Source: Methylomagnum ishizawai (GTDB taxonomy: Bacteria; Pseudomonadota; Gammaproteobacteria; Methylococcales; Methylococcaceae). From it: a DNA stretch of 64,000 bases. The stretch covers positions 3,064,150-3,128,149 of the forward strand of contig NZ_AP019783.1 of NCBI RefSeq assembly GCF_019670005.1. The letters are read 5' to 3'. Numbering within the stretch: the first letter of the stretch is position 1; every line of letters starts with the position of its first letter. Shown here in pieces: positions 37,647-39,731 of the stretch. Under the pieces are notes generated by a model. That model made no database searches, was not told the origin of the DNA, and was given only the letters and a program-made list of their open reading frames with translations. The position numbers and the translations under genes were made by a program.

Positions 37647-37746
37647 GACGATTGCTCTTGATAGGTGTGGTGGAAAAAGCCGGACATTGGCGCTACCGCA
37701 CGCACATTTATACTTGCCTCGGCTGAACCCAGGCTGAAGCCTTGCC

Positions 37747-38469
37747 ATGGAAACAATCCCCATGCCCCGCACCCCTTTCCCTGGATTGGCGCTCGCCCTT
37801 CCACTCATGGCGGCGACCTGCCATGCCGATGGTGGACTGACGCCCGCAGAGATCGAATACCTACGCCACCGCGCCCAAGCCGGCATGGCCACGACGCTCA
37901 ATGTGGACATCCCGGAACAGCGCGTCCGTCTGGAACAGCCCAGCCGGCCCATCGCGCCGGACAGCCCGGAACTGCCCGCCTTGATCGCCGATATGCGCGG
38001 CACGGTCACAGCCATGCACGGCATGGGTTTGGCGGCGGTCCAGATCGGCGTTCCGGTCAGGGTCGCGCTGCTGCGGCGCGAAGCCGGTGGGGAATTCCAA
38101 GCCTTCCTCAATCCCCGGCGCATCGCCGCCTCGGCCCAACGCCTTGGTGCCTGGGAGCGCTGTTTATCCGTGCCTTGGGGCTACCGCTACACCGATAGAC
38201 CGGCAAAAATCACCCTCCGCTATCAAACCCCGGACGGCGCGGAACACCGCGAAACCCTCGCCGATGGCGAGGCCGTGGTGTTCCAACAGGAACTCGACCA
38301 TCTCGACGGCAAGCTCCTGAGCAGCGGCCACGATCCGCGTTGGTTCATCCCGGAGGATGGGATGGCCGGTTTCCTGGCCGAGGTGGGCTGTGCCGACCTG
38401 GAACGCGCCGCTTGCCGGGCACGAACCAAAGCGCATTGGGAAACACGGGCCAAGGCGGTCCGGCCCTGA
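37747..38469 (+). CDS. exported peptide deformylase-like protein with altered metal site
   Basis: A 240-residue deformylase-fold protein. Motif 1 is GMGLAAVQ (92-99, intact), motif 2 is ERCLS (137-141, metal Cys139 intact), and motif 3, normally QHExDH, reads QQELDH (180-185), so the first zinc His (position 181) is Gln. The N terminus is signal-like (PGLALALPLMAATCHA), predicting export. Ordinary Def is cytosolic and acts on N-formylmethionine, so this is not the housekeeping enzyme. Possibly an inactive or repurposed homologue. Confidence 0.8.
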   Translation: METIPMPRTPFPGLALALPLMAATCHADGGLTPAEIEYLRHRAQAGMATTLNVDIPEQRVRLEQPSRPIAPDSPELPALIADMRGTVTAMHGMGLAAVQIGVPVRVALLRREAGGEFQAFLNPRRIAASAQRLGAWERCLSVPWGYRYTDRPAKITLRYQTPDGAEHRETLADGEAVVFQQELDHLDGKLLSSGHDPRWFIPEDGMAGFLAEVGCADLERAACRARTKAHWETRAKAVRP

Positions 38470-38873
38470 TGGAGCCCTGCCCGGACTTCCGCCACCAGTC
38501 CCCCTATCCTTTTGCAAGGCTTGACACCGGCGCGAACCTATTGGGTACGGGTCCGGGAAAAATAGGGTTTGGATGGAAGCGGTGAATGTGATTGTGGTTT
38601 TAAAATAGCCCACTGATACGATAAAAGCGAGTAGAATGACCCTATCACGCCCACCATCTCCAAGCCTCGTGGTGGGCCGGGAATACCAGTCCACCCTGCT
38701 TGCTGGATGGCGAAAAGCCGGGGAGGAAACTGCCCGACTTCCTGAGGTTTATGGCAACGCGGTAAACATAGTAGCCCTTGGCCAGCCGCGACCAGGCCAT
38801 ACCCAAAGCCCAACAGCCCTGCCAAAGCCCGGCCCACTCATCGGGCCAATCCTTATAATCCCCCGAGTATTCC
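38470..38873. other. 404-bp gap without a convincing gene
   Basis: Short frames exist on both strands (for example 38645-38875 minus) but none shows a recognised domain, good start site or codon bias. It lies between the deformylase-like gene and the transglutaminase. It should hold the latter's promoter; I see no clear elements. Confidence 0.45.
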
Positions 38874-39731
38874 ATGTTTATTAGAATCGGTTTCGATATC
38901 GCCTATTCGTTTCCCCAGCCCACAGAAATGATCCTGATGCTCTACACGCATCCCGAGCGGTCGTCGTTTTTAATGATGCCCGAGCGCTTGAGCAGCGATC
39001 CCGCCATCACTATCGAGGAATTCACAGACATCTATGGGAACCGGTGCGCACGGGCCTTCTGTCCCGGCGGGCGCTTGCATCTCAAGAACGATACCATCGT
39101 GGTGGATGGCGGTTTACCGGATATCCTGAAACCGGAGGCCCGTCAACATACCATCCACGAACTTCCGACCGATACCCTGCTTTATCTGCTGGGCAGCCGT
39201 TATTGCGAGATCGAGAAATTATCGGATGTCGCCTGGGAGCTTTTCGGACATGGGCCGACAGGATGGGGACGGGTGCAGGCTATTTGCAACTGGGTACATA
39301 ACCACGTCACCTTCGCCCACGAAGCCGCCCGCTGCGACCGCACCGCCTATGATACCTTCAAGGACCAAAGGGGGGTATGCCGGGATTATACCCATCTCGC
39401 CATCACCTTCTGCCGATGCATGGGCATTCCCGCCCGTTATGCCACCGGTTATCTTGGCGATATTCACGTGCCGGTGGTCCCGCCCATGGATTTCAGTGCC
39501 TGGTTCGAGGTGTTTCTGGAAGGGGAATGGCATACTTTCGACTCCCGCAACAATACTCCCCGCGTGGGGCGGGTTTTGATGGCCCGGGGCCGGGATGCCG
39601 CCGATGTCGCCCTGACCACGAGCTTTGGTAAGCACATCCTGGAAAAATTCGACATCTGGGCTTACGAACTCTCCCGCCCGGAGGTCGCGAAAGCCCTCCA
39701 GGACCGATCCGCACGCCCCGGTTCGCCGTAG
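38874..39731 (+). CDS. transglutaminase-like family protein
   Basis: A 285-residue protein with the transglutaminase/protease core: catalytic Cys in RGVCRDYTHLAITFCR (about residue 167), and His and Asp in WHTFDSRNN (about 220-225). The N-terminal 110 residues form a beta-rich domain typical of bacterial transglutaminase-like proteins. It may hydrolyse or cross-link peptides. No signal peptide. This family is often seen with Anbu, but the Anbu gene here is about 29 kb away. Start at 38874 is the only reasonable ATG. Confidence 0.88.
   Translation: MFIRIGFDIAYSFPQPTEMILMLYTHPERSSFLMMPERLSSDPAITIEEFTDIYGNRCARAFCPGGRLHLKNDTIVVDGGLPDILKPEARQHTIHELPTDTLLYLLGSRYCEIEKLSDVAWELFGHGPTGWGRVQAICNWVHNHVTFAHEAARCDRTAYDTFKDQRGVCRDYTHLAITFCRCMGIPARYATGYLGDIHVPVVPPMDFSAWFEVFLEGEWHTFDSRNNTPRVGRVLMARGRDAADVALTTSFGKHILEKFDIWAYELSRPEVAKALQDRSARPGSP

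Follow-up and report, generated by a model that had tools for sequence, protein, structure and literature searches.

A putatively exported peptide deformylase paralog with glutamine at a metal-ligand position in Methylomagnum ishizawai

The deformylase-like gene and its surroundings

Within the window (the whole 64,000-nucleotide stretch of Methylomagnum ishizawai DNA that was analyzed), one gene encodes a protein that resembles peptide deformylases (Table 1); its reading frame, coordinates, and strand were given exactly in an earlier note on this DNA. The 240-residue protein scores 103.3 bits with the Pfam family PF01327, whose cut-off is 22.8 bits (E value of 1.2e-29), and misses the NCBIfam equivalog cut-off of TIGR00079 (76.5 versus 103.95 bits). 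It is one of two PF01327 matches in its genome, the other being the canonical def gene (G000:C1:4059589-4060032), which has EGCLS and QHEMDH at motifs II and III.

Motif I fits the form G-phi-G-phi-A-A-x-Q and is intact, as the earlier note had claimed. The same claim for motif II fails, as ERCLS departs from the consensus EGCxS (given in the available text of PMC5591237 and PMC12690207), with the cysteine ligand itself retained. The replacement of QHExDH by QQELDH, with glutamine at residue 181, is seen in the translated sequence as described; QELDH departs from the canonical motif III, HExxH with two histidine ligands. The degenerate DNA pattern for QQExDHLxG has a single match in the window and no match in any of 100 shuffles.

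The predicted structure (pLDDT of 81.8 and pTM of 0.78, from an alignment of 45 rows) is weak at residues 4 to 20 (pLDDT of <50) and in the tail blocks from residue 191 (64 to 74), and it places residues 173 to 186, including motif III, in a single helix. Its 20 best matches among solved structures are all deformylases (Z of 20.2 to 20.7; rmsd of 1.6 to 2.8 over 142 to 165 residues), and the model's own alignment also consisted of deformylases. The earlier note had suggested a repurposed amidase-like or binding protein. An unrelated amidase fold is ruled out by the PF01327 match together with the structure matches; a binding protein is retained below as a rival, not as the leading explanation.

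In both the window and the congener G018, the neighbors are SDR, lipoprotein-like, and transglutaminase genes. The divergent lipoprotein-like protein is rich in Gln, His, and Arg and is 84% identical in the congener. The approximately 400 bp between the deformylase-like and transglutaminase-like genes (38470-38873) contain no evident gene or Rfam match, and no RNA element was matched in Rfam within the 64-kb window. The sigma-70-like promoter pattern was found once, versus 0.5 occurrences expected by shuffling; ATTTATACTT of the promoter region is conserved in the congener.

Table 1. Features of the deformylase-like gene and its surroundings (window coordinates), with the comparison loci outside the window
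Feature	Position	Strand	Remarks
Divergent lipoprotein-like protein, 244 aa	36912..37646	-	No Pfam match; context only
Sigma-70-like promoter TTGGCG-16-TATACT	37687..37714	+	Ends 32 bp before start codon; weak
Putatively exported peptide deformylase-like protein CDS (P0001)	37747..38469	+	ORF, 240 aa; neighbors the same in congener G018
Putative signal peptide, residues 1-27 (or from Met6, 37762)	37747..37827	+	Sequence, hydropathy; h-region GLALALPLMAATC
Cys25 codon, lipobox-like Cys closing h-region	37819..37821	+	Sequence
Motif I GMGLAAVQ, residues 92-99	38020..38043	+	Intact
Motif II ERCLS, residues 137-141	38155..38169	+	Cys ligand retained; Arg138 for Gly
WGYR, residues 144-147	38176..38187	+	Invariant across the exported clade
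Motif III QQELDH, residues 180-185	38284..38301	+	Gln181 for first His ligand; Glu182 and His185 retained
Codon 181 CAG (Gln)	38287..38289	+	CAA in congener G018
C-terminal pair Cys215 and Cys223	38389..38415	+	8 apart in 4/4; candidate disulfide
Transglutaminase-like protein (PF01841), downstream neighbor	38874..39731	+	Context only
QQExDH deformylases of the phylum of G955	L008, L174-L177, L179-L181		EGC retained in 4/4; no signal peptide by eye

Relatives, predicted export, and the residue at position 181

When the 38 genomes of the family were searched with the protein, five gave matches at an E value of ≤1e-15. Four of these carry the exported type, namely, the window genome, the congener G018 (80% identity to the window protein), G024 (40%), and G022 (39%); the fifth match, that of G034, has QHE and belongs to the canonical kind. 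Order-wide profile searches returned the same four of 311 genomes, and profile searches of a class sample (369 genomes) and of two overlapping phylum samples (299 and 397 genomes) found no member beyond the window genome, with six to eight first-look candidates scored per genome where more existed. Clade members left out of the profile scored 192 to 364 bits, compared to 108 bits for the best other deformylase, so a relative as distant as that of G022 would be expected to pass the thresholds used. The clade may occur in further lineages. Genes of the PmoA/AmoA family are present in each of the four genomes (PF02461; 3, 3, 2, and 1 matches), which suggests that these genomes probably belong to methane oxidizers.

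The four proteins share the sequence WE[RY]CLSVPWGYR, and Gln99, Cys139, Glu182, and His185 are retained in every one. In a tree built on 125 of 181 distinct rows, with no type 3 reference included and the G022 row flagged for unusual composition, they group in one clade with support of 100/100, and the stem leading to it measures 1.19 changes per column; the family's 37 canonical copies and 17 other accessory copies fall outside it.

A plasmid or phage origin was considered and rejected: tblastn gave matches in 779 plasmid and 98 phage records, all <60% identical and none with a place covering 80% of the query. Among viral contigs, scanning for the patterns of the family gave 11 stretches, none of them confirmed, and in a scan with P0003 (at least 600 stretches and at least 580 relatives) the best 80 scored ≤96 bits with the clade profile. 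The best viral score among the matches listed was 108 bits, compared to at least 192 for the left-out true members.

Gene context differs between genera. The G022 member lies near a MurF-like gene (named by eye) and a DUF2092 gene, and the G024 member, which is of the His type, starts 45 bp after a same-strand ZnuA-type gene (PF01297) at a contig end (L141:11867-13819). No operon is conserved across the genera of the window genome, G022, and G024, and context therefore gives no substrate.

All four proteins begin with a hydrophobic stretch that has a cysteine at or near its end. The open frame of 243 amino acids starts just three codons before Met1, so the stretch is present whether the window protein begins at Met1 or at Met6. 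The best 13-residue hydropathy is 1.85 in the window protein and 1.88, 2.38, and 2.73 in its three relatives (for the G022 protein, with an uncertain start codon). Four canonical copies, measured over their first 50 residues, reach 0.87 to 1.32; two accessory copies lie outside the comparison. Past the N-terminal cysteine, each protein has exactly three others, the motif II ligand and the tail pair; two cysteines after motif III are found in none of the 37 canonical copies and in 5 of 16 readable other accessory copies. Net charge of the tail is +1 in the window protein and 0, +2, and -5 in the others, versus a canonical median of +9 (n = 37), with the exported tails counted from three residues earlier than the canonical ones. 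From the hydrophobic N termini, the tails without the canonical basic charge, and the invariant extra cysteine pair, we strongly infer that the protein is exported from the cytoplasm. This agrees with the earlier note, and its further point, that the protein is removed from nascent-chain deformylation, is upheld as a consequence of the predicted export.

The window protein has two candidate cleavage sites, an SPase I-type C-H-A/D site and a degenerate lipobox, A-A-T-C, at Cys25. As a lipobox, AATC of the window protein fits poorly, AAAC of the congener is borderline, LPSC of G024 comes close, and IGGC of G022 fits well; threonine at -1 is outside the usual pattern. Lipidation of the window protein at Cys25 is uncertain.

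Gln181 is also present in the congener, where it is encoded by a different, synonymous codon and the neighboring genes are kept; Gln181 is thus real, and a sequencing error is ruled out. The exported homologs in G024 and G022 have His at this position, as do all 37 canonical copies of the family. The earlier note asked whether homologs share the Gln, taking His in them as a sign of sequencing error: the congener does share it and the more distant exported relatives do not, but their His does not carry the proposed meaning. Given the His in G022, G024, and the canonical copies, His would most simply be the ancestral state, and the change to Gln, common to both genomes searched in the window's genus, reads as a genus-level step on an older exported subfamily.

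Between the window and the congener, dN/dS is 0.23 for the whole gene and 0.20 for its mature part, the highest of five genes compared for the same pair (canonical def, 0.17; SDR gene, 0.18; lipoprotein-like gene, 0.19; transglutaminase-like gene, 0.11). Protein identity is 80% for the deformylase-like protein, 94% for canonical Def, 93% for the SDR protein, 84% for the lipoprotein-like protein, and 93% for the transglutaminase-like protein. The gene is under purifying selection, with weaker constraint than in the other four.

Glutamine at this position is found elsewhere. The deformylase of G955, a Candidatus Omnitrophota MAG, is otherwise canonical and has FQQELDH, and the pattern QQE-[LIMVF]-DHLxG occurs in 4 of 237 genomes of that phylum, G955 included; in the tree, these proteins are separate from the exported clade. 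There is a single PF01327 match in G955, in G1148 (with one stop codon reported in its stretch), and in G1182; G1106 has three. As the completeness of these assemblies is not given, a second copy may have been missed. G955 and G1148 also match PF02911, which is the C-terminal domain of Fmt and similar formyltransferases; G1182 and G1106 gave no match to it. Eight stretches of viral contigs have the QQE pattern, versus at least 120 with QHE; seven of the eight are readable as deformylase, and in six of these the motif II Cys is replaced by Ser. A second viral sample, represented by the best 80 of at least 580 relatives, has QH in 79 and RH in 1. The near-identical phage proteins L013, L014, L015, L016, L017, and L019, with ETSL at motif II and QQELDH, are probable pseudo-deformylases.

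Glutamine at the first metal-histidine position thus appears to be uncommon and to have arisen more than once, in copies that look to be sometimes probably dead and sometimes the cell's only enzyme. In three assemblies, an unrelated QQExDH copy is the sole PF01327 match, and PF02911 is present in two of the three. Gln181 by itself should thus not be read as proof of inactivity, and the inference that the residue disables the enzyme is weakened to that extent.

Function and competing explanations

The explanation that we prefer, and to which we give about an even chance, is that this exported deformylase paralog is a periplasmic metal-dependent N-formyl (peptide) hydrolase. It draws on sequence, clade membership, conservation, selection, and predicted fold; in its favor are the deformylase fold, the four residues retained throughout the clade, and purifying selection, and the ZnuA-type gene upstream of one His-type member (G024) points to a link with metal. 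The protein would be an anciently diverged peptide deformylase paralog, perhaps a lipoprotein in its ancestors and soluble or lipidated in the periplasm here. Its metal, more likely zinc in that compartment, would be held by Cys139, by Gln181 through the side-chain oxygen, and by His185. Glu182 would serve as the general base and Gln99 and Leu140 would line the oxyanion pocket, with these roles transferred from the canonical enzymes. A Cys215-Cys223 disulfide may close the tail, which stands in place of the basic, ribosome-binding tail of those enzymes. Likely substrates would be formyl-Met N termini exposed to the periplasm, such as those of N-out inner-membrane proteins and released formyl peptides; inner-membrane proteins, N-out ones in particular, have been proposed to retain the formyl group (PMC5454389, in the text available). 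The more specific proposal, of a working extracytoplasmic N-formyl hydrolase with a natural Cys/Gln/His metal site that deformylates the N termini of membrane proteins posttranslocation, is possible but doubtful.

Several observations count against a hydrolase. Arg or Tyr in place of the motif II Gly and Gln in place of the motif III His are reminiscent of the "type 3" group, the loss of the motif II Cys from six of the seven readable viral QQE copies looks like decay, the gene changes faster than the four compared with it, and G1182, with its sole deformylase, has no PF02911 match. The degenerate lipobox of the window protein speaks against the lipoprotein part. According to the available text of PMC12690207, exact matches to the classical motifs are limited to 61.9% of deformylases, and no deformylase with the exact updated motifs is present in 7.1% of reference genomes, so departures from the motifs alone do not decide activity.

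The main rival, which we consider unlikely, is a pseudo-enzyme: an exported fold in which catalysis was lost in this genus and which was kept because it binds formyl peptides or another periplasmic ligand. The faster change and the viral losses of Cys would fit this as well, and so would the loss of one metal ligand and of the motif II Gly on so long a stem (1.19 changes per column). It is harder to reconcile with the presence of Glu182, His185, Gln99, and the Cys ligand in all four proteins, with purifying selection, and with the three assemblies, two with PF02911, in which a QQE copy is the only deformylase detected. A deformylase that withstands or soaks up actinonin-like natural inhibitors in the periplasm is improbable. 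This idea stems from Tyr146, which is invariant in the clade and aligns with the Arg of ...CLSVPGAR... in Def1 (9qfr_A; u171581), an Arg that we take to be Arg97 on the assumption that the motif II Cys is residue 90. In Vibrio cholerae Def1, R97Y gives a higher actinonin MIC (PMC12690207, available text). However, aromatic residues are common at that position (43 Tyr and 52 Phe among 206 aligned copies, duplicates included), so we give this reading little weight; the genome's own canonical copy has Phe there, a periplasmic enzyme would be no substitute for the cytosolic one, and no biosynthetic gene lies among the few neighbors scanned.

Two further ideas take their cue from genomic setting. 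A role in clearing N-formyl or formaldehyde-derived adducts from a formaldehyde-making periplasm would suit organisms in which C1 oxidation is likely, as the PmoA/AmoA-family genes in all four genomes indicate, and lowered cytosolic deformylase activity has been linked to higher formaldehyde resistance in a methylotroph (PMC13131673, available text). That effect is the opposite of the one needed, as less activity was better, and it concerns an ordinary def gene; the protein is moreover present in only 4 of 38 family genomes, and we regard the idea as very improbable. There is a slight chance that the protein is a zinc-homeostasis paralog, part of a low-zinc response like other zinc-enzyme paralogs, as the position of the G024 gene 45 bp after the ZnuA-type gene might suggest. 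Zur regulons have been linked to spare copies of zinc enzymes, and no paper on this link was found by title in the open-access literature. The ZnuA adjacency is seen in one of three genera, however, with no ZnuA among the three neighbors scanned in the window or the three in G022, and a casual look by eye upstream of the window gene found no Zur-box-like palindrome.

Comparison with known systems

Deformylation is generally viewed as cotranslational, in the cytosol or in organelles. In the open-access literature, with subscription journals mostly outside it, we found no report of an exported or periplasmic bacterial deformylase and, by title, no paper on Gln at the first metal-His position of deformylase or on mutants of the His132 ligand; the available text of PMC3352175 has nothing on Gln at the metal position, and the leading paper of a looser search mentions the periplasm once, in connection with a cloning vector. 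If the hydrolase reading is true, this could, tentatively and within the reach of the literature searched, be the first deformylase outside the cytosol and organelles. An exported deformylase would make the question of retained formyl groups testable by simple deletion, the role of such groups on membrane and periplasmic proteins being described as not known (PMC5454389, in the text available). Gln at the metal position seems to have appeared independently in the exported clade and in other deformylases, and it offers a natural experiment on the tolerance of the HExxH site. Changes of His to Gln among the ligands of carbonic anhydrase II may retain zinc and activity, but the open-access literature searched did not show this precedent, and we do not use it as evidence.

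The protein resembles canonical Def (PF01327; type 1B) in fold (Z of approximately 20), motif I, the Cys and second His ligands, and the catalytic Glu, and it differs in its signal-peptide-like N terminus, ERCLS, QQELDH, the lack of a basic tail, and the extra Cys pair. It shares substitutions in conserved motifs with the type 3 deformylases of archaea, trypanosomatid mitochondria, and some bacteria (PMC5591237 and PMC12690207, available text), a group that is mostly weakly active or inactive according to the available text of PMC5591237; its predicted export and motif III change set it apart from them, in a comparison made with no type 3 sequences in the tree. Like the accessory deformylases (Vibrio Def2 and the integron and plasmid copies), it is a second copy beside a canonical def and has Tyr at "97," whereas it is putatively exported and has lost one His ligand; Def2 of V. 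cholerae is reported to be an active replacement of the canonical enzyme (PMC12690207, available text). With the QQExDH deformylases of G955 and three other genomes of its phylum, it shares Gln for the first metal His, but those proteins have EGC, have no signal peptide by eye, and are phylogenetically separate.
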